64,000 nt of DNA, taken from NCBI GenBank assembly GCA_027487515.1, contig JAIYDL010000010.1:1-64000 (forward strand), in the 5' to 3' direction. Made by a program: the position numbers and the translations under genes. Source of the DNA: Pseudomonadota bacterium (lineage in GTDB: Bacteria; Bdellovibrionota; Bacteriovoracia; Bacteriovoracales; Bacteriovoracaceae). Within the stretch, counting starts at the first letter, position 1. The number at the start of each line of letters is the position of its first letter. Below, piece after piece: positions 414 through 20,473 of this stretch. Under the pieces are notes generated by a model. That model saw nothing but the letters and a program-made list of their open reading frames with translations, did not search any database and was not told where the DNA came from.

Positions 414-438
414 TTTTTACTAGAATTTCTTCCTTCCC

Positions 439-469
439 AAAGGCTCTTCAAAAGAGCCTTTTTGTTTTT
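439..469 (+). terminator. Rho-independent terminator after tRNA-Leu(GAG)
   Basis: The arms GGCTCTT and AAGAGCC form a stem with a short A-rich loop, followed by a T-rich tract. It lies 26 bases beyond the CCA end of the tRNA and explains its 3' end. Confidence 0.8.
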
Positions 470-682
470 ATACTCCCAGATCACTAACCATTCTCAATAA
501 CCTAATGGCCGCGTAAAACGCTCAGATTCTGAGGTCTACTCGCGTTCAAGAACCACAGTCACTTATATGAACGTCTGGTCTTCTGGGTTCAGCTCCTCGA
601 GATCGTCCTCGGTTTTTAAGTGATGTTCGAAAATTTTTGAATAAGATATTAGGATACATCAACGACGAGCAACGGGAGTTCC

Positions 683-1651: not shown

Positions 1652-1754
1652 ATTCCCTGAGATCATCTCAGAGTCCATCGAATGAACCATCTGAGCACCG
1701 GCCGATGCGGTTGGTGCTCGTCCATGGCCCGGCGCTCGGGTGGGGTATGCCCTT

Positions 1755-1783
1755 AGAGTCCTGCCCCGGAGTGGAAGGACTCT
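1755..1783. terminator. Perfect hairpin at a convergent gene end, no U-tract
   Basis: AGAGTCCT (1755-1762) and AGGACTCT (1776-1783) form a perfect 8-bp stem around a 13-base loop. It overlaps the stop codon of the minus-strand gene ending at 1783 and lies 104 bases beyond the plus-strand gene ending at 1651. There is no T-run on either strand, so it may be an RNA 3'-end stabiliser or a weak bidirectional terminator. Confidence 0.4.
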
Positions 1784-2310
1784 TAATCCCCAGCGTGACT
1801 CAATTCGAAAATTTCCGCCCCAAAATCTCCATGACAGATCACATGGCCTGCACGTTCGACCCGGGACCGGCGGTCAAGTTTTGCGAGAACGATAGGGCGG
1901 GAAAAAAACTGCCCTCGGCAGAGGGATTCGAAGTGGCGCTCAGTACGAATGTTACCGACGCCGCTATAAATGTTAAACGGGCCTTGGGCCTCGAGGTACA
2001 CAAATTTAGATCCCGAAGAGAAGAGGGTCACCGCATCTTCTTCACTCAGCACGCGGTCGGTGCTTTGGAAGAGTCTCCCGACCTCGCGGTAGAAATGTGA
2101 GATGAAGGAGTTGGCGCCGATGCAGTTCTTGCAGCTTCCGGCCTCGATCAAACAACTTAAACTCTGCTGGCAGAGGCTCGTGCAGAAGGTTTCTTCACTC
2201 TCGCAGCTTATCTTGAGCCTCATCTCAAGCCCTTCGCTCAACTCAACCTTCGACTCCCAGGCGAAGCTGGCAAAGGGGAGAGCAACCAGTAAGAGAAACA
2301 AGGCTTTCAT
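1783..2310 (-). CDS. Cys-rich secreted protein, last gene of the secreted-protein operon
   Basis: The 175-residue product has a signal peptide (residues 1 to about 17, ending in SFA) and a cluster of six cysteines between about residues 35 and 63, which suggests a compact disulfide-bonded domain. Two further Cys lie near the C-terminus. Its start overlaps the stop of the 848-residue gene upstream by four bases (ATGA), so it is probably translationally coupled to it. It is the 3'-most gene of a five-gene minus-strand unit (8064 to 1783) in which every product is exported. No recognised domain; function unknown. Confidence 0.65.
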   Translation of the reverse strand: MKALFLLLVALPFASFAWESKVELSEGLEMRLKISCESEETFCTSLCQQSLSCLIEAGSCKNCIGANSFISHFYREVGRLFQSTDRVLSEEDAVTLFSSGSKFVYLEAQGPFNIYSGVGNIRTERHFESLCRGQFFSRPIVLAKLDRRSRVERAGHVICHGDFGAEIFELSHAGD

Positions 2311-4853
2311 GGTTGTACCTGCTTGAAATCTTCGATCCTAAAAGAATGACCGGCGCAGTTGTAGCGAGGAGTTTCAACGCTGAACGTCCTTTCTCCAGCG
2401 GTCACGAGGCTCAGGCCACCGCTTACGATGCTGATCTCGTCGGGGATAACCTTGAGGTACTTCCCGATGGAGGTGGCGATGTTGGACGCACACGTGCCTC
2501 GGATGCACTCCTCACCCCGAGATAACTTTCGGACACAGGACTTCGGAATCTCTCCGCCGTTGATCTTCAGCGCCCGGGCCACGGCATTGGGATTCACGGT
2601 CCACGAGCGAGGGATATCCTCCGGAGACCGGAGGTTACCTACGAGCTTTACGACCCCTCTGATGACGTAGAAAAACGGGCGCATGACGGGGTTCAGCATC
2701 GCGGCGGAGGTCGCAGTGCTGGCCAAAGAAATGGTGCAGGTGAAGCAGCCAGAAAGTTTTCTGACGGCGTTGCCAATCTGCTCGGGGGATTCCGCTTGCA
2801 CGGTGATGCGCTCGAAGTCCCGGCAGCTCTGGAGGGTGATCCCTTCGAACGCCAGATAATTCTGTGGTCTCACGCGCGCATCCGCGCTGACGACGATGGC
2901 ACAGGGAGCACCCAAGAGCGGTCCAAAATCAATGATCAAAGTTTTCTGTACGGCCCGGCGGTCAAAGCGAGGATTGTAATAGACTTTTCCGTCCTTGATG
3001 ATCTCCTGGAGTGAACTTACTTTTTTGTCAGCGAGGGAGACGTCCACGTAGATGGGAACGATCGTCGCTGCCGAGACACCGGCCAGGACCATGTCTTTTA
3101 GAAACTCAAAGCCGGCTTTCTTTGATTGGGCCCAAGGGTCATACATCTTACACGCATACCTCTCTCCCATGGATGTGGTGGCCGAGATGTTCTTTATCTG
3201 GCCATCGAGGGAAAGGAGACTCGAGGCATAATCCGAAGAGATCTTGAGGTCGATGAGGTTGGAGATGATTTTTTTTCCGCAGTCCAGAGCTGTCATGCAA
3301 AAGGTCTCGACCTTTCCTGACTGACCATCCTTGAGCACAAGATAACTTGCAGTTGCTTCTCGTGGAGTGGCCTCGAGCACCTTCTTAAAGTGGAAGGACT
3401 GGTACCAGGCAGAGAAGGCCTCCGGTCCCGGGTGATCTTCTTCTCCCCAAACCTTATCGTCTCGGAGCTTCTCGCACAAGGTCAGTAGTTGGGGAGCAAA
3501 CTGGGTGAGGGACCACTCTAAGTCGGCCTCGATCTCACTGTGGATACTCTGGGAATAGTTCCAAATGGACTCGTACTGAGTCATGGCCGCAAGTTTAGGC
3601 CGAATAAAACTAATCTCACGGTCAGTGGCCGAGGTGAGCTCCGCACAAAAGGTGAAGGCCTCTGCGCGCTTAGCCTTATCGGCGCCCTTGAGCCCCTCGA
3701 GCTCCGCCGTGATATCGGAGAGGAGTCGATCCTCTAACCCCCGACGGATAAACTTCAACTGAGTCAGGGACTGAGAGAGCTTCAGACGGATGAAGCCTCT
3801 GGTTTTCGCCATGTTGTCTTTAAAGTTCTTGGCCCAGGCGGTCGCTGACTCATGAGCATCCATTCCTAAGTCTTCGCGGCCCAGCCCGTCATCTTGTCGA
3901 AGGATGTCATCGTGTTCGTGGTCCGGGCCCGGCTTGAAGACTTGGAGCTTCGCGAGGTCCGCATCTTGTGAAACTCGCGAGAGCTCGCGCAAAGAATTCG
4001 TGTTCAAGAAATCCTTCGAACACTCGGGCCTTGCGATCGAGTGGCACCCGTTCGAGAAGAAGAAACTGAGCTCCTCGAGGTTCACTTGGCGAAAGAGACC
4101 GTGGTAGTTCAAGGCCATCTGGCGCGCTTCCTGAGAGAAGTGAAACGCCCAGGAGTAATAGATGTTGAAGCTCGACCAGAAATCAAAACCAACCTTGTTC
4201 CACTGTTTCTCATCAAGGTGGCGAAGGTCAAATTGGAAGAAACTTACGCTCAGGTCACCCTGGTTGTCGATGCCACACTCGACCAAGTTCTCTGACCCCA
4301 CTGCCATGGACTCTCCGAGGGCCTTCAGAGTCTCCTGGGTGGGCTTCGATTGAGAGAGATGAGGATAGAGCGCGGCGAAGTCTTTAACTTCGTGGCAGCT
4401 TAAGTGGGAGTCAGGAAAGTTGAGGCGCTCACCTTGAAGCTTGCCTGCCCACGCCGCTGAAACGAGCTGGTCCATCTCTTCGCAGCCATCTTTACAGGTC
4501 TCCATGAGATCTCTGTATTGCGGAAGTTTTGAGTTCAAAAGCGGCAGCTGACCCCGAAGGAGTTTTTCTGCGACGAGCCTCGACAGGGACTGGAGGGTGA
4601 ACCGGTAGCGCTTGATCCCTTCGGTGGTGAACGTATCCTGGCGGGAGAGCATGTCGCCGGCGCGAAGCAATGCTTTACCCACATCGAGGGTGTCAGCGAT
4701 GAAGAAAACCGATCGGGTAGGTTTTTGCGAATCCCGCGCACAATCGGCGCGGTTAGAGAAATTGAGCGGGTTAATATCAAGGGGGCGACTTTCTTTGGCC
4801 TCAGCGATTGCGAGAATACTTAAAGTGCAGAGGCCAAAGAAGAGTCGTCGCAT
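2307..4853 (-). CDS. Large secreted protein of unknown function
   Basis: The 848-residue product has an N-terminal signal peptide (about residues 1-19, ending in AEA). The mature protein is mostly mixed helix with scattered cysteines, and has one moderately hydrophobic stretch around residues 700-735 that could associate with a membrane. There is no recognisable catalytic motif. It is the fourth gene of the five-gene unit: eight bases separate it from the 204-residue gene upstream and it overlaps the gene downstream by four bases. The tight packing implies that the products work together, perhaps in an envelope-associated or extracellular assembly, but that is inference. Confidence 0.65.
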   Translation of the reverse strand: MRRLFFGLCTLSILAIAEAKESRPLDINPLNFSNRADCARDSQKPTRSVFFIADTLDVGKALLRAGDMLSRQDTFTTEGIKRYRFTLQSLSRLVAEKLLRGQLPLLNSKLPQYRDLMETCKDGCEEMDQLVSAAWAGKLQGERLNFPDSHLSCHEVKDFAALYPHLSQSKPTQETLKALGESMAVGSENLVECGIDNQGDLSVSFFQFDLRHLDEKQWNKVGFDFWSSFNIYYSWAFHFSQEARQMALNYHGLFRQVNLEELSFFFSNGCHSIARPECSKDFLNTNSLRELSRVSQDADLAKLQVFKPGPDHEHDDILRQDDGLGREDLGMDAHESATAWAKNFKDNMAKTRGFIRLKLSQSLTQLKFIRRGLEDRLLSDITAELEGLKGADKAKRAEAFTFCAELTSATDREISFIRPKLAAMTQYESIWNYSQSIHSEIEADLEWSLTQFAPQLLTLCEKLRDDKVWGEEDHPGPEAFSAWYQSFHFKKVLEATPREATASYLVLKDGQSGKVETFCMTALDCGKKIISNLIDLKISSDYASSLLSLDGQIKNISATTSMGERYACKMYDPWAQSKKAGFEFLKDMVLAGVSAATIVPIYVDVSLADKKVSSLQEIIKDGKVYYNPRFDRRAVQKTLIIDFGPLLGAPCAIVVSADARVRPQNYLAFEGITLQSCRDFERITVQAESPEQIGNAVRKLSGCFTCTISLASTATSAAMLNPVMRPFFYVIRGVVKLVGNLRSPEDIPRSWTVNPNAVARALKINGGEIPKSCVRKLSRGEECIRGTCASNIATSIGKYLKVIPDEISIVSGGLSLVTAGERTFSVETPRYNCAGHSFRIEDFKQVQP

Positions 4854-4861
4854 GTTGTATC

Positions 4862-5476
4862 CTATTGACCGGCCACGCAGCCAGTAGCTTGCTTCATGAC
4901 TGTTGTGTAGAACATGATCATCGCCTCGTCGGCAGGAGTGAAGCCTCTCCGTGTTCCACCGGTTTCCGTCATCAGACCGTACATGTAGCGGTTGAGAGCG
5001 TAGTAGACCGAGCGAGGGACATTGACTGTCTGCGTGCAGCGGCCAGCGGTGAAGCGCAGGGTGATTCCGTAGTAAGGGCCGGATTCGCAGAGGTTTCCGC
5101 AGCCAGAGCCATTCCCCGGGATGATGATGTTCGTACCGTTGCCAGTGCCGGTGTTGAAGGTGTTCCCTTCGCCGAAACTAAAGGTCGCAGTAAATCTTCT
5201 GTCGGTCGACGTGACACTTGAGAAGCGACACAGACCCCCCGGCGAGCAAGAGATGCGTGCGTCGCGGTTGATTGCCATGAGGATGGTGGCGTCATCGAAG
5301 CGTTCAAACCCAAACTCATTGGTTTCACAGCCGAAGATCTCTCGCACGTCTTGGGAATCACGGCAAGGGTCACTCCCGCCGGACCCGCCTCCGGAGAAGG
5401 AAGGGAGGGAGAGACTTAGAATCAGGATCGAGAATAGTGTTTTCAAATTGGCTCCAATTGTAATCATTATTCGCAT
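4862..5476 (-). CDS. Small Gly/Cys-rich secreted protein
   Basis: The 204-residue product has a signal peptide (hydrophobic core about residues 11-27). A Gly/Ser spacer follows (SGGGSGGS). The mature part has paired cysteines and a Gly/Asn/Thr-rich stretch around residues 105-130 with pilin- or fibre-like low complexity. Its start overlaps the stop of the 514-residue gene by ten bases and its stop is eight bases before the 848-residue gene, which places it in the middle of the five-gene operon. No family recognised. The low-complexity, Cys-paired small exported protein could be a structural subunit, but nothing in the sequence proves this. Confidence 0.6.
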   Translation of the reverse strand: MRIMITIGANLKTLFSILILSLSLPSFSGGGSGGSDPCRDSQDVREIFGCETNEFGFERFDDATILMAINRDARISCSPGGLCRFSSVTSTDRRFTATFSFGEGNTFNTGTGNGTNIIIPGNGSGCGNLCESGPYYGITLRFTAGRCTQTVNVPRSVYYALNRYMYGLMTETGGTRRGFTPADEAMIMFYTTVMKQATGCVAGQ

Positions 5477-7011
5477 TTAATTTCTAATTTATGCAAACTG
5501 TTCATTTCATAGGTTGGGACGATGTAGGAGTCTCGCTTTATGCTCAGCATCTCCAGATCAAGTTTTTTCTCTGATCTGCCGCGGACTTTGAACTCAGCTT
5601 TCAGCGTAAGCATCGGGTCTTTGATGACGGCACACGCCGACCCGTTACAAACTTTCGAATAGTAGGGAGGCCAGAGCTTGAACGACAGGTAGCTTCGGAG
5701 CTGATCGACGGCGCGGTCAACATTATCCAGCGGTCTTTCGAACACAAGGCCCGGGATGGTAGAAATCCCTGGGAGTTCCCTTGTGACTTGAATCCGGGGA
5801 ATTTCCTGGATGGTTGGGATACTCGAGTTCGAGATCCGGCCCAGTTGCTGCTCGATGGTGTTCAGGCGACTCTGGATGCGCTTCTTAAATCGCTCGTAAT
5901 CGTACTTCGGGTCATACATGTTGGATTCAATGACGTAGGTCTTCCCATCTTCGATCAGACTCTCGGCCACTTCAAACCCGATGCCTTTGATGAACCCCTG
6001 AAACCTCGCCGGGGCAATCCCACCGTCATACCAGCTGGTGATGAGCTCCAGGCGTCCCTGAGTCTTTTCATACAGCGAGTGTTCTGCGATCACCGGTTGA
6101 GCATAGTCGCAAGATGATTGGCAAACCTTGTCGCTACAGACTTTCGGGCAATTGTTATTGACCAGCAGCTGGGTCTCGAGCTGAACCAGACCGTTACCTA
6201 GCGGATTCACGGAGACGCTCCCAAAGTGAATGTCGGGCATGCTCCAGCTCTCGGGGAATGTTGGGTATTCGATCCCGTAGTCATCAGATGAAGGGATCAG
6301 GTCCGCCTGGGGATTCACCGACAGTCGGATGGGAAGATTCGACAAGGCCTTGAGGCTGCCGCTGTTACCCGTGGCGTCCCCGGCAAGGTAGAGATTGATG
6401 GCCCCGAAGAGATCAAGGTTCTTAATTCCCAGAGCAGCGAAGGTCTGAGTGTTTTGGCACTCTTTTTTGATTTGTAACTTAAGTAAGTAGCTCGTTCCGT
6501 AGTAGGGTTTCACGAAACAGAAGCCCCCGTTGAAGCTCATCCGATGAGTAGACAGACGCTTCACCTCACAGCCAGGCTGAGTGGCAGGTAGCTGGAGGGG
6601 CTGATGGCCCTCGTCCTCAACGGTCAGTTCGAGGCAGGACTGGATGAGCTTCCAGTCCTGATGAAATTTCTCTTTTCTGACCTCATGGTCGTTGGCGAGC
6701 TCGAAGGGGTGACCCGAAAGCGCGCAGCGCTTGTAGCCAAAGTCTTTCGTGAAGTTCACACCCTTTACGGTGTCTTCATAGTCGACGACCTCGGGGCCCA
6801 GGGCGATCATCAGAAACTGACCATTCATGGCGGCGGTCGAGCAGTTTGACGCGCGGAACTGGGGCAAGTTGGGGAGCGTTCTTTCTTCGTTGTAGTAGAC
6901 CGTTGACTCGGTGGAGTGCGAGATGGCCAGGTTCACGGATCCGATGCGCTGAACCTGGCACGCGAGTGCCGAGGTCGCAGAGATCAGAAATGGAAGGATC
7001 AACATTTTCAT
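5467..7011 (-). CDS. Secreted protein of unknown function, operon gene 2
   Basis: The 514-residue product carries a signal peptide (about residues 1-17, SALA then C). The mature region is beta-rich with many cysteines, including a dense patch of six Cys within residues 290-310 (NNCPKVCSDKVCQSSCDYAQ) that looks like a small disulfide knot. A helix-prone segment at about 370-400 follows. It lies 51 bases after the 333-residue gene and overlaps the following small gene. I recognise no enzyme motif; exported and disulfide-rich is as far as the sequence goes. Confidence 0.65.
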   Translation of the reverse strand: MKMLILPFLISATSALACQVQRIGSVNLAISHSTESTVYYNEERTLPNLPQFRASNCSTAAMNGQFLMIALGPEVVDYEDTVKGVNFTKDFGYKRCALSGHPFELANDHEVRKEKFHQDWKLIQSCLELTVEDEGHQPLQLPATQPGCEVKRLSTHRMSFNGGFCFVKPYYGTSYLLKLQIKKECQNTQTFAALGIKNLDLFGAINLYLAGDATGNSGSLKALSNLPIRLSVNPQADLIPSSDDYGIEYPTFPESWSMPDIHFGSVSVNPLGNGLVQLETQLLVNNNCPKVCSDKVCQSSCDYAQPVIAEHSLYEKTQGRLELITSWYDGGIAPARFQGFIKGIGFEVAESLIEDGKTYVIESNMYDPKYDYERFKKRIQSRLNTIEQQLGRISNSSIPTIQEIPRIQVTRELPGISTIPGLVFERPLDNVDRAVDQLRSYLSFKLWPPYYSKVCNGSACAVIKDPMLTLKAEFKVRGRSEKKLDLEMLSIKRDSYIVPTYEMNSLHKLEIKCE

Positions 7012-7062
7012 CTGGCATCCAGAAACTGGGCAGGGGTGACCCTGCCCAGAGGTGATTCGAGG

Positions 7063-8064
7063 TTACTGAGCTACAGCGTCTTCGTTGATTTCTGTGAACG
7101 TACAGATCTCCGACGAATGGCGCTTCCACTTTCTCAGCTGAGCGAGAAGGTTCGTGTCGTTCCGTCGGGCCTCGATGAACGAGTACCGGATCTTACAGAA
7201 TCTTGGAACAAAGGCGTTGTTGCTGTTGATGAACGTGTCGACCAAGTACGCAGAGCTCACGTTGTTGAAGGCCCGTGGAGTCATGGCCGCAGTCGTGAAC
7301 TGACCGCCGGAGACAGTGATCCCGAGGATGTCATGGAGAAGGAGGTCGTACACCGTTGATCCAGCTGGAGAAGAGGATCCTGCGTAAACGTACGAGCCTT
7401 TGCCTTGCTGATCACACACAACTTTCGCACTTACCTTGAGGTCGGCGAGCTCGGAGTACCGAAGTCCATTGCTTGTGACAAGGTCAGTGACCGTTGCCTG
7501 GGCCTTAACAGAGAAGTTCGGAGTCGCCGTTCCAGCGGGGCTAAATCCACCGTTCTGGGAAGCGTAGAAGTACTCGATCTGAGGACCACGGTAACAAACA
7601 TCAAGGAAGAACTCAGCGCCGTAGCGCTCAGAACCAAGGTTGACGCTCATCTTCGTGAGTTGCCGAGTCCACTCTTCTTTCTGGCCTTCGTTGAAGGCCG
7701 TGTTGAACGAAGTTTCTGGAGCGTAGAGGTTGCGTGCGGATGTGGCCCCGGCCATTTCACCGTTGTCCGTCCACTCTGCAGAAGACACTGAGAGGTAGTC
7801 GAGGCGTGTTTCGCCGTCACCGGACGTAGAGCCCGTACAGACGCAGTTACACTCAGGAGTGGTGCGGCAGTCTTCGGCGGGGTTACAAGACTGGCTTGTC
7901 ACCCGGTCATAACAAACACGGCTTGAATACGGCTCGTGCTTGATACCAGCATTACATGGATAGATTGATGGGCCTGAACTGTTCACATCAAACTTGAATT
8001 CGAGACTCACGGCAAGCGCATTTGCCATAGAAAGTAAGAGTACAAGGGCGATCATTAGACGCAT
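7063..8064 (-). CDS. Secreted Cys-rich protein, first gene of the five-gene operon
   Basis: The 333-residue product has a signal peptide (residues 1 to about 18, ending in ALA). The first 75 mature residues hold eight or more Cys, including a CNCVC cluster, so a disulfide-rich N-terminal domain is likely. The rest looks beta-rich. The ATG at 8064 is preceded by AGGAGAAG, a good ribosome binding site. As first gene it should carry the operon promoter within 8065-8456. Function unknown; the whole unit (333, 514, 204, 848 and 175 residues) appears to be a co-expressed set of exported proteins. Confidence 0.65.
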   Translation of the reverse strand: MRLMIALVLLLSMANALAVSLEFKFDVNSSGPSIYPCNAGIKHEPYSSRVCYDRVTSQSCNPAEDCRTTPECNCVCTGSTSGDGETRLDYLSVSSAEWTDNGEMAGATSARNLYAPETSFNTAFNEGQKEEWTRQLTKMSVNLGSERYGAEFFLDVCYRGPQIEYFYASQNGGFSPAGTATPNFSVKAQATVTDLVTSNGLRYSELADLKVSAKVVCDQQGKGSYVYAGSSSPAGSTVYDLLLHDILGITVSGGQFTTAAMTPRAFNNVSSAYLVDTFINSNNAFVPRFCKIRYSFIEARRNDTNLLAQLRKWKRHSSEICTFTEINEDAVAQ

Positions 8065-8456
8065 GAGACTTCTCCTAAAAAGATATTGAGCGCACTCGGT
8101 ATAACGAAAGAAATAGTCTGTGAAGCCATTTTTTTGTGATGCGCTAAAAGTATGCTTTCCCGTAGGTCACTTTAAGCGGGAATCACCTTGCTGCACTTGA
8201 TGTCGTTTATGATGTCGAAGTTATTAATTTCTTAAGGAATAAAATTATGCCGCGATGCTGCGTGATTCATTTTTTGGGGGCGGTCCTCCCAAAATCCTAA
8301 GCATGGGTGGGATACCCAAGGCTAGATTCTCAGAGTTTTTGTTCTACTGCCCCTGCACCGGAAATTTGTCTCTAATTCGGTATTCTCCTTTCAAATATCA
8401 AACTGTAACCTCTTCCCGTATCAAATTCTTTATCCAAAAAACTGCCCGGAGAGATC
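8065..8456. other. Divergent intergenic region, no gene seen
   Basis: About 390 AT-richer bases lie between the start of the secreted-protein operon (minus) and the M1 aminopeptidase gene (plus). It must hold both promoters. I saw no -35/-10 pair with good spacing and no palindrome longer than six bases (TTCCCG/CGGGAA near 8158-8182), so I make no promoter call. Confidence 0.5.
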
Positions 8457-11075
8457 ATGAAGTTCCTTTTACTTCTCCTTTTTTCAATCACCAACGTCTC
8501 CGCTTTAGTTCGCCAGAACGACGATAACTTAACGCTTAAACTTGCCCAAGAGCGACGGGCCCAGGTGAAAGATGTCGAGTACTTCCTTCGCTTTGAGCTG
8601 GAAAAAGGAGCGGATACGTTCCGCGGGGTCGTTCGACTCGAGCTGACACTCAATTCGATCAAGAAGGACCTATCAATTGATTTCCTGGCCCTAGAAATTG
8701 AAACTCTTAAGGTCAATGGAACAGCTCTTAGGCAGTACCCCAAGCGCCGGGGAAGTTTTGATGTGCCGGCGAAGTACCTCTCTCCGAAAACCTCGGTGGA
8801 AGTCACGTACACCGGGACCTATTCAAAGGAAGCTTCCGGCTTTCAGCGCTCAAAAGATCCCGAGGACGGTTCCGAGTACCTCTTCACGGACTTTGAGCCT
8901 TACTATGCCCACCGGCTCTTTCCCTGCCTCGATCAGCCCGACCTCAAAGCGGTCTATCACCTTTCCGTGAGCGCACCATCGGAGTGGAAGATCATCCACA
9001 ATGAATTAATAGAGAAGGAAGAGAGGGGAGGGGAGAAGACACTCACTGTGTTCCGGGCAACGAAGCCATTTTCAACTTACTTATTTTTCCTCGGGGCCGG
9101 TCCCTACGTCGAATGGAAAGCCTCTCACGGTGATCTTCCGCTTTACATCTACGCCCGGAAGTCTTTGGCGAAGTACGTCGATCATGAGGCGATCATGACG
9201 ACCACTAAGAAGGGTCTTAGCTTCTTCAATGACTACTTCGGATATTCCCATCCCTTCTCAAAATATGCCCACGTCTTCATTCCAGAGTTCGCCTGGGGGG
9301 GAATGGAGAATCCTGGTGCCGTTGCTATGAACGAAAGAAATATTTTCCGAGGACCTGTGCCTCAATCTCGGTATGAACGGCGGGACAGCCTCATCCTCCA
9401 CGAAATGGCCCACATGTGGTTCGGGGACCTCGTAACCATGGAATGGTGGAACGATCTCTGGCTCAATGAGAGCTTCGCGAGCTACCTCGCGGCCGTGGCC
9501 CAGGAGCGGGCGATGGACTCGAAGGCGACCTGGTTGGACTTTTTCTTTTCAAAAACCTGGGGCTACTGGCAGGATCAACTCGTCTCAACCCATCCGATCG
9601 AGACCGACGTCCTCGACGTGCGGTCCGCGCGGGCGAACTTCGATGGGATCACGTATGCGAAGGGCGCCGCGAGCTTGAAGCAGCTCCACTACTTTGTGGG
9701 AGAAGAGGGATTCAAGAATGGCCTCCGAGACTACTTCAAGCGCTACGCTTTCTCGAACACGAAGCGAGAAGATTTCATCGGTGCGATCGCAAAAGCATCC
9801 CAAACGGATCTCACCGACTGGACCGCCAAGTGGCTCAAGACCGCGGGCCCAAATCGCGTGACGCTAGTTCCTCAGTGTGATCAGGGGAAGCTCGTAAATC
9901 TCACGGTGAAACAGAGGCCCAGCGTCTCCGGAACCCTTTCACCCCACCGAGCGCTGGTAGGGTTTTATCAGGATGAAGACGGAAAGCTTTCGCTCAAGGG
10001 AGAGGCGGCGGTGCTCTACTCTTCTGAATCCACCGAGGTGAAGGTCGAAGGAAGAAATTGTCCTGATTTCATCCTCCCGAACTTAAATGACTTTGATTAC
10101 GCGCTCTACGCATTGGATGAGCGCTCCCTCGAGAAGGCGAAGACTGCCCTCAGTCAGCTCCCGGACCCTCTCTCCCGGCTCATGGTCTGGGGTATGCTGT
10201 ATCAGATGACTCGTGATGCCGAGCTAAACCCTATGGTCTTCATTGAAAATGCGTTTGGGGCGCTGAAAACAGAAACTGACGATCTTCTGCTCGGGAGTCT
10301 CCTCAGCCGATACAGCCACATCAAAAATGTCTACGAGCTGTACCTCGGGCCGAAGGAGCGAGCACTGATCGCTCCCCAGTTCGAGGCACTCCTCTGGGAC
10401 CGTGTGGAGCAGGCCAGGCCAGGGATCTCACTCCAGATGTCTTTCTATGATTTTTTTGTCACCGTCTCACAATCTGGGCCCTCGGTCTCACGCCTCTATG
10501 ACATCTTAACCAAGAACGCCCCTCCAAAAGGGATCACTCTTGATCAAGACCGCCGCTGGGCGATCCTAATGAATCTCTCAACCAATGGTCACCTAGAGGC
10601 GATGAATCTCATCACCGCGGAACTCAAGCGAGACCCTTCAACTTTTGGGAAACGCATGGCCCTCGCCGCCCAGGCGGCGTACCCAACGAAGTCCAATAAG
10701 GAGCAGATGTGGAAGACGATTCTCACCAATAAGGACCTGACGCACAGTGAGCTCGAGGAAATCGGGGCCCGGATGCATGGAGTGAATCACCCCGAGTTGT
10801 CGGAGTCATTTTTAAAGGCCTATTTTAAGCGTCTCACGACCGTTAATTGGCAGGAGCATGACGACAAAGTTGATGTCTACTTCGAGGGGCTCTTTCCTCA
10901 CCGTCTTTGCACCGAAGATCTTCTGAAGATGAGTCAGAGGTCCCTGCGAAGTGCCAAGAATCTGACCTCCACCGCCCGTCGGAGTTGGATGGAGGCCCAG
11001 GATGAGCTCACGCGATGTGTGAAAGTCCGCCGACTCCTATCCTCGAAGTCCAATGCACAAAAGCAACCTAACTGA
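8457..11075 (+). CDS. Secreted M1-family (aminopeptidase N-like) metallopeptidase
   Basis: This zinc aminopeptidase removes N-terminal residues from peptides. The 872-residue product, a usual length for the family, has a signal peptide (about residues 1-17) so it acts in the periplasm or outside. The exopeptidase motif GGMEN lies near residue 281. The zinc site HEMAH is near 315-319, followed after 18 residues by the third ligand Glu in WLNES. C-terminal to this is the helical ERAP1-like region. The ATG at 8457 is preceded by GGAGAG. Immediately downstream lies a dead tRNA-Leu, and a decayed copy of this gene's 3' half sits at 13641-14130. The catalytic residues are intact, so this is the functional copy. 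Confidence 0.93.
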   Translation: MKFLLLLLFSITNVSALVRQNDDNLTLKLAQERRAQVKDVEYFLRFELEKGADTFRGVVRLELTLNSIKKDLSIDFLALEIETLKVNGTALRQYPKRRGSFDVPAKYLSPKTSVEVTYTGTYSKEASGFQRSKDPEDGSEYLFTDFEPYYAHRLFPCLDQPDLKAVYHLSVSAPSEWKIIHNELIEKEERGGEKTLTVFRATKPFSTYLFFLGAGPYVEWKASHGDLPLYIYARKSLAKYVDHEAIMTTTKKGLSFFNDYFGYSHPFSKYAHVFIPEFAWGGMENPGAVAMNERNIFRGPVPQSRYERRDSLILHEMAHMWFGDLVTMEWWNDLWLNESFASYLAAVAQERAMDSKATWLDFFFSKTWGYWQDQLVSTHPIETDVLDVRSARANFDGITYAKGAASLKQLHYFVGEEGFKNGLRDYFKRYAFSNTKREDFIGAIAKASQTDLTDWTAKWLKTAGPNRVTLVPQCDQGKLVNLTVKQRPSVSGTLSPHRALVGFYQDEDGKLSLKGEAAVLYSSESTEVKVEGRNCPDFILPNLNDFDYALYALDERSLEKAKTALSQLPDPLSRLMVWGMLYQMTRDAELNPMVFIENAFGALKTETDDLLLGSLLSRYSHIKNVYELYLGPKERALIAPQFEALLWDRVEQARPGISLQMSFYDFFVTVSQSGPSVSRLYDILTKNAPPKGITLDQDRRWAILMNLSTNGHLEAMNLITAELKRDPSTFGKRMALAAQAAYPTKSNKEQMWKTILTNKDLTHSELEEIGARMHGVNHPELSESFLKAYFKRLTTVNWQEHDDKVDVYFEGLFPHRLCTEDLLKMSQRSLRSAKNLTSTARRSWMEAQDELTRCVKVRRLLSSKSNAQKQPN

Positions 11076-11093
11076 TGAGTAGAGTTCCTCACT

Positions 11094-11180
11094 GGCTTGC
11101 TACTTATACAGGTAGACTCTCCGTGTTCAGACGGTAGCGCCTTCAAAAGGATGCTGTTTCAAGTCCAGTTCCGATCTAGG
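11094..11180 (+). pseudogene. Decayed tRNA-Leu
   Basis: From 11111 the sequence matches the intact tRNA-Leu(CAG) at 14153-14239 without gaps for about 62 bases (about 52 identical by eye), covering the D arm end, anticodon loop TTCAGAC, variable arm and T loop TTCAAGT. The acceptor stem no longer pairs (3' side TTCCGAT, no CCA), and a T-stem pair is lost. The promoter is also gone: where the intact copy has TAGACA-17-TATCAT, this one has TGCACA-17-GAGTAG (11054-11082). It sits just after the intact M1 peptidase gene, as the intact tRNA sits just after the dead peptidase copy. Confidence 0.85.
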
Positions 11181-11267
11181 CTGCAATGAATTTTCATTGC
11201 AGCGACCCCCATGTTTCTGCAAGAGAGGTATCTGTTACGCAAACCTCTCTTCACAGTGTCTTCCCAT

Positions 11268-11801
11268 TTACTTCGTTACCAGACGAGGCGCCATCAATGT
11301 CGGGTCTCGCTTAACGACGCGATCTCCTTGCCTCGTGATCGAATCGGCCTCAGCTCGCAGACTTTCGAACTTCGCACCGATGAGCGATGCATTTCTCGCG
11401 CAAACGGGTTGAATCGAGCGATACTTCTCAAGGGCGGGAGAATCCAAGCAGTCCTTGTACTTCTCGAGCTCCTTCCTGGCGTCATCTTCCGAGGCAAGCG
11501 CCGCCTTAAGTCCTGAAAACGCCCAGGCCAAGCGTTGGGTTGCACCATCGTTTTGTGGATGGGGTGCGGCCATGCTTGCCGGAGGCGTCGCCTTCCGGAG
11601 GCCCTCCACAACTTTAAGGGAAGGTGCACTTCCTCCTGCTGCCTGAACCCGATGAAGGTCTCGCTTTAACTCAGGAGCGTCTTTCCCCTCAGGAGCGAGC
11701 ATGGTGCAGAGTGAGAAAACGAGCAACACTGCTACTCCTCCGACTGCGCCTTTTTCAATTCCGCTCCACCGTTCAAACAGGACACTTGTATTTCTCTTCA
11801 T
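11268..11801 (-). CDS. Single-pass membrane-anchored protein, paralogue of the 22995-23573 gene
   Basis: The 177-residue product has a short charged N-terminus, a transmembrane segment at about residues 20-36 and an exported helical domain. The C-terminal half has the pattern YKDC..........PVC, which is also found in the 192-residue protein at 22995-23573 (YQDC..........YVC). The ATG at 11801 is preceded by GAGGAAAG; an upstream ATG at 11879 would overlap the neighbouring gene and lacks support. It lies 26 bases downstream of the B-lectin gene on the same strand and is likely co-transcribed. At the other locus the same two families are again neighbours. Function unknown; a surface partner of the lectin protein is an inference. 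Confidence 0.7.
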   Translation of the reverse strand: MKRNTSVLFERWSGIEKGAVGGVAVLLVFSLCTMLAPEGKDAPELKRDLHRVQAAGGSAPSLKVVEGLRKATPPASMAAPHPQNDGATQRLAWAFSGLKAALASEDDARKELEKYKDCLDSPALEKYRSIQPVCARNASLIGAKFESLRAEADSITRQGDRVVKRDPTLMAPRLVTK

Positions 11802-11827
11802 GAGTTCTTTCCTCTTTGTGTTTTTGA

Positions 11828-13426
11828 TTACTGCCAGGAAGTAAAGAATGGATGGATTGGGAAATTGGCCGGGTTCCACTTGCCGGGAACCGGTCTCACA
11901 TTGCTCCAGTCGCGGCAGTCAATTCTCGCCGCGGGATTGGAGTAACCCCAGGTCGTGTTTTGAATCCCGTTACATTGCGGGGAGCCGTTTCCGACGTTGA
12001 CGCCATTTGGATTGTTGTTCACACTCTGCCAAGCTTCCCAGCGGGTCATTCCGTACTCGCGCGTGAAGTAGAAGAACTCACCACTGTCCACTCCATCCAT
12101 CGTGATGCTGCCGATGTCTTGAGTTTGATGCGCATAGTGATAGGCAATCATGGTTAGCAAAGTCTTTCCGTTCGTATAGGTCACCCAGACAGGCCAAGGG
12201 GTCCAGACGGTGAACGTGTTGGCATAGGTTCCTGGAGTTGCTCCTGCTGGAAAATTACAACTCGGGCTTGCGATCCATGAAAAAGCCTGGTTAGGGGTCG
12301 CTCCGAATGACGAAGGAAAGAGTACCCACGAGTCTCGCGTGTTACAGCCGATAGAAAAGAAGGGCTGGAATCCTCCCGTTTGGTCATGGGTGCCCATGAT
12401 CCCGATGTAGGCACCGTCAGCGCCGATAAGGCTATACCCGCCGTGGTTAGGATTAAATGTGACCTGACCGCCGTTTTGCGGAAGGTACTGAGTATAGGCC
12501 ATCGTCTGCGCCACGCGCACGCGTCCCCACGGATCAGCGATTCGATACGAGTCACTGATCTGGACATAATTGGTATCGTGCTTATGATAAGGAAGATGCT
12601 CACCGATATTGATTTTGCGAGCATTACCGCTTCCGCATGTGCAGCCGGTTCCTTCGTTGCCAGGATCCTGTCCCGTGGCATGCCCCTGACCGTCATCGCA
12701 AACCGTTTGGTCAAGGAAGTCGATCCCGTTAGACGGACGATTGAAGAGACCGTATTGAGCTGGTAGACATTGGGTCCAGGCCACTGTGGCGGCCGGATCT
12801 GGACCGCGGAGGATCGACACATAAGGGCTCTCTTGCATGGTGGTCTGAAGCACCGACCCACCCATGCCCCCAGTACCACTCTGCCAGAGCCATTGCCCGT
12901 TCGGACCGTACACAACTAAGTTTCCATCCCATTGCATATTGGCGACGCAGTTATGGCTCGAGCAGCTCTGAGCGGGGTAGGATCCTGGAGTTGAGCTGGT
13001 TTGGCTCATCCAACTCGTGGCCCAAATTGCGGTTCCACCGTTATATGCAACAAAGTTTCCATCGTGCTGCATCCTAAGACTGGCACCCGGATAATTGTGA
13101 AGACTTTTCATAGGCACCCCAGTTCCTGGAGGAAGTGAGAATGCCTGATACTTTCCATGAAGTGTGTAGACCCAAGAATTCACTCCTGCATCTGACCAGT
13201 AGGAGGCGTACGCACCATCCGTGCCGCACCATTCCTGGTAGTCCGCCGCTCTTTGCATGCACATGATCTGATTAGAGGAGGAATCGTAACCATTGTCTTG
13301 AAACCATCCAGAGCTTGGAATTGTGTACCGGCAACCGTTTGGAACATGAATCCAACATGAATCGGCCAGGGCGAGCTGTTGAGCCCCGAAGAGCGCCAGC
13401 CCAGCGATGAGTAATTGTAAACGCAT
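11828..13426 (-). CDS. Secreted B-lectin (bulb-type lectin) domain protein
   Basis: The 532-residue product has a signal peptide (about residues 1-21, ending ALA). Residues about 22-90 form a Cys-containing domain with the pattern CWI, WFQ, CMQRAADYQEWCG and YAS. This pattern is shared with the 728-residue protein at 20697-22883. Residues about 95-210 are a beta-prism II B-lectin domain; two sugar-binding-like motifs are visible, MQHDGNFVAY and MQWDGNLVVY, near the QxDxNxVxY consensus. The C-terminal 300 residues are Trp/Gly/Asn-rich, beta-like and unrecognised. It probably binds glycans outside the cell. It is first in a two-gene unit with the membrane protein downstream, and is flanked by the two tRNA-Leu/peptidase copies. 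Confidence 0.8.
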   Translation of the reverse strand: MRLQLLIAGLALFGAQQLALADSCWIHVPNGCRYTIPSSGWFQDNGYDSSSNQIMCMQRAADYQEWCGTDGAYASYWSDAGVNSWVYTLHGKYQAFSLPPGTGVPMKSLHNYPGASLRMQHDGNFVAYNGGTAIWATSWMSQTSSTPGSYPAQSCSSHNCVANMQWDGNLVVYGPNGQWLWQSGTGGMGGSVLQTTMQESPYVSILRGPDPAATVAWTQCLPAQYGLFNRPSNGIDFLDQTVCDDGQGHATGQDPGNEGTGCTCGSGNARKINIGEHLPYHKHDTNYVQISDSYRIADPWGRVRVAQTMAYTQYLPQNGGQVTFNPNHGGYSLIGADGAYIGIMGTHDQTGGFQPFFSIGCNTRDSWVLFPSSFGATPNQAFSWIASPSCNFPAGATPGTYANTFTVWTPWPVWVTYTNGKTLLTMIAYHYAHQTQDIGSITMDGVDSGEFFYFTREYGMTRWEAWQSVNNNPNGVNVGNGSPQCNGIQNTTWGYSNPAARIDCRDWSNVRPVPGKWNPANFPIHPFFTSWQ

Positions 13427-13640
13427 TGAATTCCTCCAAAAATAAAGTCTCTGTTAGCAGGAATGAGCTTGCGCTCAAGACTGATCCACACTGCTTTGAG
13501 ATCAGTAATCCAGCTAGTTTTGATGTTTTGATATTGCTTCTTCGGAAACTCTCCTCGCAAGCTTTTGAAATAAGTCTCGACTCGTCTAGATCTTTAGTGA
13601 GTTGCTATAAATAGCTGAAATTTCATCACGAAAACAAAGA

Positions 13641-14130
13641 GACAGTCACTTATGCCAAGGAAGCCGACAGGCTAAAAAAGCTTTATTGTTTTGTAGGGAG
13701 GACCTTTTTAAGTACGTTCTCTAGAAATGTTTTAGGCCATACGTTGTCTCCAATACTAAAACGGCAGACCTCTATCGGCGCTATTGCCAAGGCTTCATAA
13801 AGAATCTGAAATGATGGGGCAGGAGTTTGCAGCGCTTTTTTGGAACCGACTTGAGATGGCTTACCCGGGCCTCTCACTTTACATGACCTCCTCTGATTTT
13901 TATGTCTCTTATCTCGCATCGACTTAACCAAGGGTCACCTGGAGGCGATGAAACTCATTGAGGAGGAGCGTTTTAGCAAAAATACCTTGACGCATAGTGA
14001 TCTTGAAGAGGCGGTAGGCTCGTCTACGCCGGAGAACTACCTCGAGCTCTAGCGGCCATTTTTACAATCATACTTTGTGGGACAGTTCGCAATCGTCTCT
14101 CGATGAAATCCAATAGACATTAACCACTTA
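13641..14130 (+). pseudogene. Decayed M1 aminopeptidase (3' half only)
   Basis: Three blocks align by translation with the intact gene at 8457-11075. Block 1 (13641-13797) has TYAKEADRLKKLYCFVG against TYAKGAASLKQLHYFVG, then SIGAIAKAS against FIGAIAKAS. Block 2 (13813-13910) has EFAALFWNRLEMAYPGLSL against QFEALLWDRVEQARPGISL. Block 3 (13922-14130) has LTHSDLEE against LTHSELEE and continues past the old stop codon. In-frame stops, frameshifts and deletions of about 575 and 100 bases or more separate the blocks. The N-terminal half with the zinc site is missing. The remnant leads directly into the live tRNA-Leu, exactly as the live peptidase leads into the dead tRNA. Confidence 0.85.
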
Positions 14131-14142
14131 ACTAATTATCAT
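14114..14142 (+). promoter_or_regulatory. Promoter of tRNA-Leu(CAG)
   Basis: TAGACA (14114-14119) and TATCAT (14137-14142) are each one mismatch from the sigma70 consensus and are 17 bases apart. Transcription would start about four bases before the tRNA. The promoter lies inside the 3' end of the dead peptidase. The homologous bases beside the dead tRNA at 11054-11082 keep the spacing but have lost the -10 box. Confidence 0.7.
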
Positions 14143-14152
14143 AGCCTCCAGT

Positions 14153-14239
14153 GCCCGGGTGGTGAAATTGGTAGACATACCGTCTTCAGACGGCGGCGCC
14201 TTTAAAAGCATGCTGGTTCAAGTCCAGTCCCGGGCACCA
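14153..14239 (+). tRNA. tRNA-Leu (anticodon CAG)
   Basis: An 87-nt class II tRNA with encoded CCA. The acceptor stem GCCCGGG (14153-14159) pairs with CCCGGGC (14229-14235). The anticodon stem CCGTC/GGCGG (one G-U pair) closes the loop TTCAGAC, giving CAG, which reads CUG. The long variable arm and the T loop TTCAAGT are normal. A good promoter precedes it and a terminator lies at 14365-14393. Confidence 0.95.
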
Positions 14240-17083: not shown

Positions 17084-20000
17084 CTAATGAACTTTGAAGA
17101 GGGCCCTGTGCTCAGAATTGATAAAGATACCACTCGGTGTGATGGATATGTACATTGGGCGGTAGAGTTTTGCACTGGACAAATCTCCTGCCTTATCGAT
17201 GCGCGATTCAGATACGCCAAGCCAGGTGGTCGTCGTACCAGTGTTCGGGTTCATTCGGCGGATGCTTCCGTTGGACGCGTCAGAAAGATAGAGAAATTTT
17301 CCGTCAGACTGGATGCTCGACGGATTCGACAATAACACCTCTGCCCCTGGCCCGTCGTTGGCGCCCCTCACGCCTGCGGTACCCGCTAATGTAGTTACAG
17401 TGTTTGAGTTTGTGAGGTCAATTTTTCGAATGAGACTGTTTGAGAAATCTGCGACGTACAAATGGTTTTCGAGCCAAGCCAAGCCCAAGGGGTCTGAAAA
17501 GCTTGCTGCGGTGCCTGCTCCGTCAAGGGACCCGGCCACACCAGAGGTCCCTGCGATGGTCGTGACCTGAAGATCCGCGACCCGCAACTTTCGAATGAGC
17601 TGGTTCTCTGTGTCCGAGATGTATAAATCAGTCCCATCCGTTGTGATCATTTCCGGAAGGTTGAACCTGGCACTACTGCCAGTTCCGTCACTGTCTCCAG
17701 TTTGCAAAGGAGATCCAGCGATGGTTGAGACTGTGTCCGCTTGTAAATCAATCTTCCGGACCGTACTGCTTGATCGGTCGACAACGTAAAGATTCTTTCC
17801 GATAGATGTTATGCCGATGGGTCTGTGGAATCGTGCCGAAAGTCGTGCGCCATCGACCGTCCCTGGACTCTTCCGGCTTCCGGCGAAGACTGTTCTTGAC
17901 CCCGAGGAATCAATTTTCCAGATGATGTGATCGTCGTGATCTGTTGCGTAGAGAACCCCATCGACCTCGGCCATAGTTCTAAATCTCGGAGTCACTTCCT
18001 GGCCTTTCCCATTGCTACTTCCATTCGCGGAAGTTTTTCCGGCGATGATGGAGGTTGATCCTGAGGCCGTGTCTACCTTCAGGATTGTCCGACCGCTGGT
18101 GTTAGAGACGAAGAGATTACTGCCGGAAATGGCGAGGCCCCGGGGGGTAACCAATCTGCTATAAGTTCCGAGGTCTCCCGCAAAAGAAGTGATGGTATCC
18201 GTATTCCCGGCAAGCGTTGTTACGCTAAAAGTGACTAAGTTCATTTTCCTGATCAAGCTATTACTAGAATCTGCAATGTACAGATAGTTGGCGTCCTTGG
18301 CGAGGCTTGCTGGATTCTTAAACAACGCTGCACTCCCAGTCCCGTTCGTCTCCCCACTCGTCGCAGAGGTTCCTGCAACTGTGGTAACCACGCCACCTGA
18401 CACGCTTATTTTCCGCAGCGTGTGTCCGGCGTAATCGGAGACGTACAAATATGTCCCATCGCCCGTGATGCCCCAGGGTCCATTGAACCTTGCGCTAGTC
18501 CCGGTACCATCGAGGACTCCTTGGGAGCTTCCGGCGAACGTAGAGACCTGAATGTTATTCAGGTCGGAGAGATCCACCCGACGGATCTTATGGTTAGAAT
18601 AGTCCGCGACAAAGAGGTCTGAGCCTTCGACCCAAAGATCTCTGGGCGCTCGTAAGCGGGCGGTCGCTCCGGAGACCGTCGTGCCGGCCGAAGGAACATT
18701 CCCCAAGGTTCCGCACAACCCAACAATCGTGGTCACGTTTCCGGAGCCGTCGATCCGTCGAATGCAGTTCCCAGCGGAATCAGAAATGAGCCAGTTGGTT
18801 CCGAATTTAGCGATCCCCCCTGGAGTATTGAATCTTGCTGTCGCTGTAGTTCCATCGGTCGTGCCTGCTCGCCCTGGTACTCCGGCGACAAGACTCACGC
18901 TGTCTGACGTCAGATTGAGTTTGCGGATGGTGTGCGAGTAATCTTCAGTGAAGTAAAGTTCATTGCCATCGACGTAAAGTCCGTAGGTCGGCATCAGAGT
19001 CGCAACGTCTTGAGGATTGTACCCTGCGGTGAGGACTTCTGAGGGACCGAGGATTGAACTCACCGCACCTGTGGAGAGGACAAGTTTTTTTATCTTCCTT
19101 GAGGTTTTTGAGTTGATGTAGGCGAGATCTGGTTCCACCAAGACGATGCCACTGATACCGCCGATTCGAGCACTGCTCCCGACTCCGTCAACATCACCGC
19201 TGTAGTCACCACCGAGGCCCGCGAGGTCTGTCGCGATGCCTGTGCTGACATCTACTTTCTTAATGACACCAGATCCGTTGTCAGCAGCGTAGAGGTATCC
19301 TCCATCATAGATCATACTCCGCATCGAAAAATAGTTCATGTCGGCCGCCGTTGCTCCATTGATCCAGCCAATCTTCTGGGAGCCGGAAAGGGTCGTAACG
19401 GCGCCGCTGGCGATGTCAATTTTTCGAATGACTCGATTCCCGTCATAGATGTAAAAGGCGCTGCCATCATGAGTGATCGCGCTGGGTGCGTTGAACCTCG
19501 CCAGCAGCGGATCGCTCCCGTGGTTCACAAGGCCGTTCACGGACCCTGCGTAGGTGGTGACTACCCCTGAAGGGCTGACTTTCCGAATCCGATCGTTGGA
19601 GTAGTCGCACACATAGAGTTCTCCTCCCAGGTAGGTGATGCCAAAGGGGTTCTTGAAGAGAGCACTCGTGCCAGTTCCGTCTGTTAAGCCTGTCGTTCCT
19701 GCGACACCGGCCAGAGTCGTGACCTCTAGGGTGGCCAGATCCAGTTTCCGAATCGTGTGGTTGTTATAGTCTGAGATATACAGTGAAGCTCCATCGGAAG
19801 CGAGGCCTTGGATCGTGTTAAATCTTGCCTCAAGGCCGAACCCGTCCACGGAGCCCGAAAAATCAATGTTCCCCGCGACTGTTGTGACCGAGGGATTTTC
19901 GGGGTCACTGACGTCGATTTTCCTGATTCCGTGTTTGTCTCCGAGAAAAACGTTGGAACCGACTTTCACCATGGGCTCAGGAGACTGGAATCGAGCTTCA

Positions 20001-20473
20001 TTGCCCGCTCCGTCAGCACTCCCCAGAATGTTAAGGTTTCCAGACCAGAGATCCATGGTCGAAACAATCCGAAACGAAGGGCTCACAGAGACTCTCAAGA
20101 CGTCGTCTTCGCCGTAACCGAGGAGCCGAAGTTTTCCCTTCAGAGTGGAGGTCGAGGGGACGGTCCAAGAGATATGCTTAGGAGCTGTTTGGTAGATTTT
20201 GATCGTGTTGTAGTTCACCCCATCGGCCGCGTATTGGAAAACGAGCTTTTTGAATTCTCCACCGGCCCCGAGCTTGATCTTAAGGGTATCTCCTGCTCGA
20301 TAGATCGGGTCGATTCCTTTAAGAGACAGCGAGGTCTTTTCCGAGCCTGGTAGAGTGACTTCGACCTTGCAACTACTTAAGGCCAGGAAGGCCACAAGAC
20401 AGCAACCCAACGCTCCACAAAATCGAGTGAGTTTTTTGGTTAAGGGGCCCAGATAAGATTTATGATGAGTCAT
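17084..20473 (-). CDS. NHL-repeat beta-propeller lipoprotein
   Basis: The 1129-residue product starts with a lipoprotein signal (LALSSC; lipidated Cys about residue 35). An Ig-like N-terminal part (about 40-140) is followed by about 17 tandem units of 50-60 residues from about 150 to the end. Each unit has the pattern (A/S)RFxxPxGI..DGxxLYISDxxNHxIRKxDLxxxxVTTLAG, which is the NHL signature. Seventeen or eighteen blades would make about three six-bladed propellers. Such proteins are usually exposed binding scaffolds. The gene is flanked by the YndJ-like gene (convergent) and, divergently, a lectin protein with a predicted propeller. No catalytic motif is seen. Confidence 0.88.
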   Translation of the reverse strand: MTHHKSYLGPLTKKLTRFCGALGCCLVAFLALSSCKVEVTLPGSEKTSLSLKGIDPIYRAGDTLKIKLGAGGEFKKLVFQYAADGVNYNTIKIYQTAPKHISWTVPSTSTLKGKLRLLGYGEDDVLRVSVSPSFRIVSTMDLWSGNLNILGSADGAGNEARFQSPEPMVKVGSNVFLGDKHGIRKIDVSDPENPSVTTVAGNIDFSGSVDGFGLEARFNTIQGLASDGASLYISDYNNHTIRKLDLATLEVTTLAGVAGTTGLTDGTGTSALFKNPFGITYLGGELYVCDYSNDRIRKVSPSGVVTTYAGSVNGLVNHGSDPLLARFNAPSAITHDGSAFYIYDGNRVIRKIDIASGAVTTLSGSQKIGWINGATAADMNYFSMRSMIYDGGYLYAADNGSGVIKKVDVSTGIATDLAGLGGDYSGDVDGVGSSARIGGISGIVLVEPDLAYINSKTSRKIKKLVLSTGAVSSILGPSEVLTAGYNPQDVATLMPTYGLYVDGNELYFTEDYSHTIRKLNLTSDSVSLVAGVPGRAGTTDGTTATARFNTPGGIAKFGTNWLISDSAGNCIRRIDGSGNVTTIVGLCGTLGNVPSAGTTVSGATARLRAPRDLWVEGSDLFVADYSNHKIRRVDLSDLNNIQVSTFAGSSQGVLDGTGTSARFNGPWGITGDGTYLYVSDYAGHTLRKISVSGGVVTTVAGTSATSGETNGTGSAALFKNPASLAKDANYLYIADSSNSLIRKMNLVTFSVTTLAGNTDTITSFAGDLGTYSRLVTPRGLAISGSNLFVSNTSGRTILKVDTASGSTSIIAGKTSANGSSNGKGQEVTPRFRTMAEVDGVLYATDHDDHIIWKIDSSGSRTVFAGSRKSPGTVDGARLSARFHRPIGITSIGKNLYVVDRSSSTVRKIDLQADTVSTIAGSPLQTGDSDGTGSSARFNLPEMITTDGTDLYISDTENQLIRKLRVADLQVTTIAGTSGVAGSLDGAGTAASFSDPLGLAWLENHLYVADFSNSLIRKIDLTNSNTVTTLAGTAGVRGANDGPGAEVLLSNPSSIQSDGKFLYLSDASNGSIRRMNPNTGTTTTWLGVSESRIDKAGDLSSAKLYRPMYISITPSGIFINSEHRALFKVH

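Follow-up and report, generated by a model that had tools for sequence, protein, structure and literature searches.

Homology-facilitated illegitimate recombination and Campbell-type insertion leave a hybrid gene upstream, cargo in the middle and the left-over native 3' end of the gene downstream. Genomic islands that integrate next to tRNA genes leave a duplicated tRNA sequence, one copy of which is damaged. In tandem duplication-random loss or duplication-random loss (TDRL/DRL), as it is described in passages on mitochondrial gene order (PMC5745709), different members are inactivated in each copy of a duplicated block, and pseudogenes come to lie beside their live paralogues. Here we report a bacterial locus in which a block made of an M1 aminopeptidase gene and a tRNA-Leu gene is present twice, with the tRNA dead in the upstream copy and the peptidase dead in the downstream copy. 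The doubled block spans 5.8 kb (8457-14239) of the window, which covers positions 1 to 64,000 of contig C5 (107,453 bases) in genome G000, a 3.41-Mb assembly in 27 contigs with a completeness of 93.85% and a contamination estimate of 0.73%. The genome comes from a Bacteriovoracaceae-type family, which is regarded as predatory. The opposite decay of the doubled block is real and well preserved, and the processes involved in it are already known.

Opposite decay of a doubled peptidase-tRNA block

The block consists of the following features.

8457..11075, forward strand: intact M1 aminopeptidase gene, 872 amino acids (Pfam, motifs, orthologues in 5 of 25 same-genus relatives)
11054..11082, forward strand: decayed tRNA promoter, TGCACA-17-GAGTAG (aligned with relatives)
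11093..11180, forward strand: dead tRNA-Leu, best preserved in 11111-11173 (similarity to the live gene)
13633..14123, forward strand: dead peptidase, 5'-truncated so that it runs from codon ~394 to the stop (alignment to intact genes)
14114..14142, forward strand: tRNA promoter, TAGACA-17-TATCAT (same layout in the relative G012)
14153..14239, forward strand: intact tRNA-Leu(CAG) (ARAGORN; Rfam tRNA model, 46.9 bits)

A preliminary description, made from the letters of the window alone, had placed an intact M1 peptidase and a dead tRNA-Leu ahead of a dead peptidase 3' half and an intact tRNA-Leu(CAG), and both pairs were confirmed. The product of 8457-11075 matched Peptidase_M1 (E = 7e-56), ERAP1_C (2e-29) and Peptidase_M1_N (7.7e-22) in Pfam, and carries HExxH at residue 315 with the downstream Glu and GGMEN at residue 281; it belongs to peptidase family M1, with the M1 domain and the HExxH...E and GxMEN motifs all present. 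The tRNA-like sequence behind it matches the live gene at 61 of 87 positions over the whole tRNA. Chance, which the preliminary description had allowed for as the source of the similarity at 11094-11180, does not explain it, as 1000 mononucleotide shuffles reached a local score of at most 24, compared with 76 for the real sequence. Its best-kept part is 84% identical to 14170-14232 over 63 nt (E = 3.8e-13 against the whole genome), and the anticodon triplet CAG survives. ARAGORN made no call there, and no tRNA model of Rfam matched within 11050-11260 at E <= 10. Plainly similar to the live gene, yet without a promoter and not callable as a tRNA, 11093-11180 is a tRNA pseudogene. A perfect 11-bp hairpin with a 2-base loop (11180-11203) abuts it, and a further hairpin of 9 bp lies at 11221-11251.

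In the downstream copy the tRNA has a callable cloverleaf and a CAG anticodon, and is 98-99% identical to the tRNA-Leu(CAG) genes of G012, G017, G022 and G023. No other CAG gene was found among 7 DNA matches at E <= 10 in G000, an incomplete genome. The peptidase ahead of it was identified by alignments; it begins at about 13633, a few bases ahead of the 13641 first given for it, and is made of pieces in more than one frame, with stops. Taken singly the pieces are weak (whole-genome E of 1.3e-4, 0.0055 and 6.0), while their order, strand and position are concordant. Semi-global alignment of the dead peptidase scored 202 with the G012 gene and 134 with its own intact gene, and the maxima of 40 shuffles per comparison were 70 and 67. 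No peptidase-like sequence was found in 13428-13632. Because the first ~393 codons are missing, this copy may never have been a working peptidase that "lost" its function.

The two copies lie in the same orientation at a spacing of 3.06-3.35 kb. As had been claimed, they align through the peptidase end, promoter and tRNA, being collinear from the end of the peptidase across the spacer into the tRNA (110 of 159 nt matching, with 3 gaps), and the two promoters read as described, from 14114 and 11054. The promoter of G012 is TAGACA-17-TAGAAT. Those of G017 (TAGACA-17-TATGAT), G022 (TAGACA-17-TAAAAT, at a tRNA without peptidase) and G023 (TGGACA-18-TAAAAA) are the best consensus matches within 59 bases upstream of the tRNA. 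The -35 box sits inside the last peptidase codons in G012 and the dead copy (endings KSDRH and KSNRH, then TAA), and just past the peptidase stop in G017 and G023. The predicted tRNA promoter is retained in the relatives and lost at the dead tRNA. The intact peptidase is also without its old stop, and its protein runs four residues further (SNAQKQPN).

A single block in relatives

Among the 25 relatives of the same genus (26 genomes with G000 itself), a full-length peptidase was found in five, G009, G012, G015, G017 and G023, at 58-80% identity; a sixth match, in G002, is a distant M1 (27%). The single peptidase-tRNA block predicted for relatives was present, with tRNA-Leu(CAG) following the peptidase stop by 30 bases in G012, 55 in G023 and 42 in G017, one block in each. 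No tRNA was found near the peptidase in G015 (19 kb surrounding or adjoining the gene) or in G009 (15 kb). Since three of the five peptidase-bearing relatives hold one such block, a single block is likely the ancestral state. Two intact blocks were found in none of the 26 genomes.

G003, G008, G011, G021 and G022 are relatives without a full-length peptidase, and a sensitive tblastn of six stretches lying before their tRNA-Leu(CAG) genes found no dead peptidase copy. The idea that relatives might carry the dead peptidase on an unrelated mobile element was not borne out in these stretches. The sole match there was an intact, different M1-like gene of G008 (C28, 266-1723, reverse strand; Pfam E = 1.5e-7), which sits directly upstream of tRNA-Leu(CAG).

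Age of the doubling

Aligned over 462 coding positions, the dead copy is identical to the G012 gene at 292 and to the intact gene of its own genome at 264; with G023 it shares 236 of 447. The 113 sites that distinguish the intact gene from G012 divide into 55 at which the dead copy is like G012, 27 at which it is like its neighbour and 31 at which it is like neither. With the spacer included, which contains a promoter under selection, the counts for G012 and the own gene are 70:27 and 72:28. Across peptidase end, spacer and tRNA, the dead copy is identical to G012 at 87.3% of 165 nt and the intact copy at 68.9% of 151 nt, figures to which function contributes, as the tRNA makes up 87 of the compared bases and the promoter lies in the spacer. 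The trees grouped the dead copy with G012 at ultrafast bootstrap values of 80, 85, 90, 68 and 52. The dead copy is no closer to its own intact gene than to the G012 gene, so the doubling, as dated by these comparisons, is most probably old, about as old as the split of G000 and G012, rather than recent.

Mosaic signal in the intact gene

The surviving peptidase gene is probably recombinant. Two parts of it can be told apart by a change point and by the proportion of synonymous differences (pS).

8457..9350, forward strand: G012-like 5' part of the intact gene, ending near codon 297 (change point, pS)
9351..11075, forward strand: 3' part of the intact gene, more deeply diverged from G012, the proposed incoming part (sequence comparison)

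Compared with G012 in overlapping windows of 100 codons, the intact gene shows a nucleotide identity of 0.77-0.83 in windows up to column 400, and of 0.65-0.77 in those past column 360. Third positions place a change point at codon 297 (interval 279-317), where identity to G012 falls from 0.606 to 0.462, a change equalled in 7 of 2000 permutations; variable sites place it at codon 117 (interval 115-308), equalled in 0 of 2000. Control pairs were weaker, with 77 to 1233 of 2000 permutations for third positions (five pairs) and 120 to 1171 of 2000 for variable sites (three pairs). Between G000 and G012, pS is 0.569 (0.495-0.651) before and 0.737 (0.678-0.797) after codon 300, and the proportion of nonsynonymous differences (pN) is 0.074 before and 0.141 after it, with intervals that do not overlap. 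Both measures are flat in four control gene pairs.

Site patterns and branch lengths point to an age difference between the parts. Sites supporting G000 with G012 stand against those for the two other groupings at 78:25 in codons 1-300 and 75:79 past column 400 (Fisher 1.7e-5, for a split point picked after viewing the data and with columns 300-400, at 8:15, omitted). The branches of G000, G012 and their stem are 0.27, 0.20 and 0.16 in the 3' part and 0.19, 0.07 and 0.27 in the 5' part. Longer branches of both G000 and G012, with a shorter stem, argue for an older split of the 3' part rather than faster change in one lineage. Meanwhile, G000 and G012 are sisters against G023 in both parts, other groupings being rejected by the approximately unbiased (AU) test used to compare topologies (p at most 0.006). 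Hence, the 3' part would have split earlier than the 5' part, after the line of G023.

Proposed origin and its rivals

The reading that we put first, at somewhat below an even chance, is that recombination inside the peptidase gene imported a related peptidase 3' end with its tRNA and displaced the resident 3' end and tRNA downstream. The flank upstream of the intact gene (78% identical to G012 over 167 nt) and the G012-like 5' part on one side, and the remnant 3' end, which is G012-like or at any rate no less so, with the live tRNA on the other, enclose the divergent part, which fits one intragenic recombination. What they enclose is the peptidase 3' part, the dead tRNA and the two genes of the lectin module. 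The event would have taken place long ago, near the parting of this lineage and G012. Related DNA with a peptidase 3' end and tRNA-Leu, either from outside or duplicated from the cell's own genome and since diverged, would have recombined into the first third of the resident peptidase gene; the hybrid gene would have remained in frame and presumably functional, and the resident 3' end and tRNA would have been stranded downstream, the left-over peptidase fragment being dead from birth. There would then have been two redundant tRNA genes, of which the incoming one would have lost its promoter and stems by drift. The lectin-like genes may or may not have come in the same event. We are a good deal more hesitant about a fuller version, in which the related peptidase end and tRNA were spliced in frame, the shared peptidase/promoter DNA let each copy keep one half, and the promoter-free peptidase lost its stop and gained four residues.

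Several observations weigh against such an import. The best break is at codon 117 for one class of sites and at codon 297 for another, some 100-280 codons ahead of the point where the dead copy becomes recognisable. Synonymous third positions, taken where the amino acid is the same (366 sites), gave no significant change (324 of 2000 permutations). The divergence of either part lies within the range of nine other G000-G012 pairs (pS 0.50-0.87, after dropping two of 11 rows, a spurious antisense frame with pS 0.074 and the peptidase itself). Among 129 family genomes, that of G000 included, none supplied a closer donor of the 3' part than G012 (76%); no attachment site was seen, and no recombinase among the window proteins scanned, two sets of 17 and 7 that are part of the open reading frames. 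As for the kinship of the dead copy, other coding alignments gave 52:31 of 112 and 55:35 of 115 sites for G012 and the own gene, and its bootstrap support with G012 spans 52 to 90. The AU test rejected neither alternative placement, with its own intact gene or outside both (p 0.14-0.53, five alignments), and when corrected for the longer G000 branch the counts became non-significant (p 0.09 for 55:27, then 0.38 and 0.52). Because the branch of the intact gene is longer than that of G012, a three-way split would by itself produce some surplus of sites shared with G012. Absolute divergence was also tried as a sign of foreign origin; it was uninformative, neither part being unusual by itself.

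An old tandem duplication accounts for the mosaic equally well. The block would have doubled before or about the G000-G012 split, the G012 line would have recombined to one copy and so produced the mosaic, and here the lectin genes would have removed the 5' half of the second peptidase while one tRNA decayed. The same orientation, the spacing and the collinearity of the copies agree with it, the trees fit an almost simultaneous parting of the dead copy, the intact copy and G012, and two collinear same-strand copies with reciprocal inactivation are what tandem duplication-random loss leaves. That model starts from two complete copies; codons 1-393, absent from the downstream peptidase, may have been lost secondarily. 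Yet two full-length peptidases would have to be kept until they had diverged, after which G012 would have had to lose one by recombination and the present lineage to truncate one independently, and two intact blocks were found in none of the 26 genomes of the genus. We regard this history, the main rival, as the less likely of the two. Fewest steps are needed by a duplication in this lineage after its parting from G012, followed by reciprocal loss, with the mosaic ascribed to an unrelated exchange or chance. The AU test is compatible with joining the dead copy to its own intact gene (p 0.14-0.31), but the dead copy is nearer to G012 (292/462) than to its neighbour in the same genome (264/462), all three site counts (55:27, 52:31 and 55:35) favour G012, and the mosaic is left unexplained; a late duplication is therefore unlikely, and the lean of the dead copy to G012 disfavours a recent tandem duplication as the whole story. 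The preliminary description had proposed one duplication with one function lost per copy. Two copies that each keep one function are supported, and a recent duplication within the lineage is not.

The contig might also fuse two populations. An identical 119-nt stretch at contig ends of G000 and G012, by tRNA-Leu(GAG), may point to one mixed assembly, but the longest exact match between the peptidase regions of the two genomes is 23 nt, too little to have produced a false join there. The dead copies show decay and are not just out of place, and the contamination estimate is low (0.73%), so that an assembly artefact is very improbable. Integration targeted at the tRNA, raised as another route, did not hold: no integrase was found among the scanned proteins, the tRNA 3' end is the unmatched part, and the repeat covers peptidase end, spacer and tRNA. 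A mobile-element origin of the dead peptidase was likewise set aside, with no recombinase among the scanned proteins and one PHROGs match of unknown function, in the lectin-like protein.

Genes between and around the copies

Two reverse-strand genes separate the copies.

11268..11879, reverse strand: 203-amino-acid protein, no Pfam (E <= 10) or PHROGs (E <= 0.01) match
11828..13426, reverse strand: 532-amino-acid protein, weakly B-lectin-like (Pfam, PHROGs)

Both had been labelled a B-lectin module, a label that is partly sustained by a weak B_lectin match in the longer protein (E = 0.013, 16.5 bits), below the curated cut-off of 32.4 bits. This protein also matches phrog_19296 (function unknown, E = 5.7e-10). 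Its kin within G000 are encoded at 20697-22883 of the window and at C20:4963-7237, with 37% identity in the N-terminal part or 30-31% in the C-terminal part; the N-terminus of the 20697-22883 product is a relative of it. Matches to the lectin-like gene at E <= 1e-5 occur in 3 of the 129 family genomes, its own genome counted.

In G012 the peptidase is immediately preceded, on its own strand, by an NHL-repeat gene (1127 amino acids). Its orthologue in the window (75% amino acid identity) is inverted and lies beyond the tRNA, on the far side of the block (17084-20473, reverse strand). The NHL match breaks at the stop codon, and the G012 peptidase flank picks up about 30 bases on. The sequence 3' of tRNA-Leu(CAG) in G012 is found in G000 on a different contig, C6. 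At the other end, tRNA-Leu(GAG) lies at 330-413 of the window, and the gene content between it and the peptidase/CAG region differs among G000, G012, G023, G003 and G011. Apart from the NHL and peptidase genes, which the comparison left out, only G003 and G011 share genes in this interval (tblastx E <= 1e-10). A variable interval between tRNA genes fits repeated exchange, and 414-14152 of the window is a possible exchange hot spot.

It should be further pointed out that an 84-amino-acid gene without a Pfam match is present together with tRNA-Leu(GAG) in two copies, at 12-413 of the window and at 1-405 of contig C27 of G000. The C27 stretch is 78.6% identical to contig C6 of G012 over 8.25 kb, with its last 119 bases identical to G012 contig ends. 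One of the two copies is possibly mis-binned.

Comparison with known systems

A narrow literature search found no prior description of the peptidase-tRNA locus. It indicates no new system or function and is a modest case of genome reshuffling. Its value is that of a readable intermediate of neighbouring genes separating on a bacterial chromosome, in which the two dead halves can still be recognised and the prior state survives in relatives. It also offers a natural test of what an overlap between a protein end and a tRNA promoter costs: the copy that keeps the promoter keeps the last codons, and the copy that keeps the protein has lost the promoter along with the old stop.

Integration at a tRNA gene resembles the locus in that a tRNA sequence is doubled and one copy is damaged. 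Unlike in such integration, the repeat here extends over the spacer and the 3' end of the peptidase, both ends are missing from the damaged tRNA and not just its 5' part, and the scanned proteins include no integrase. For homology-facilitated illegitimate recombination or Campbell-type insertion, the expected layout matches the locus; unlike in Campbell-type insertion, no donor and no plasmid or phage integration gene was seen, and the break is only roughly placed. The locus differs from duplication-random loss, as those passages on mitochondrial gene order present it (PMC5745709), in that it lies on a bacterial chromosome, one copy is truncated, other genes separate its copies and the live gene is apparently recombinant. 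What it shares with that description is a doubled block of genes with different members dead in different copies.

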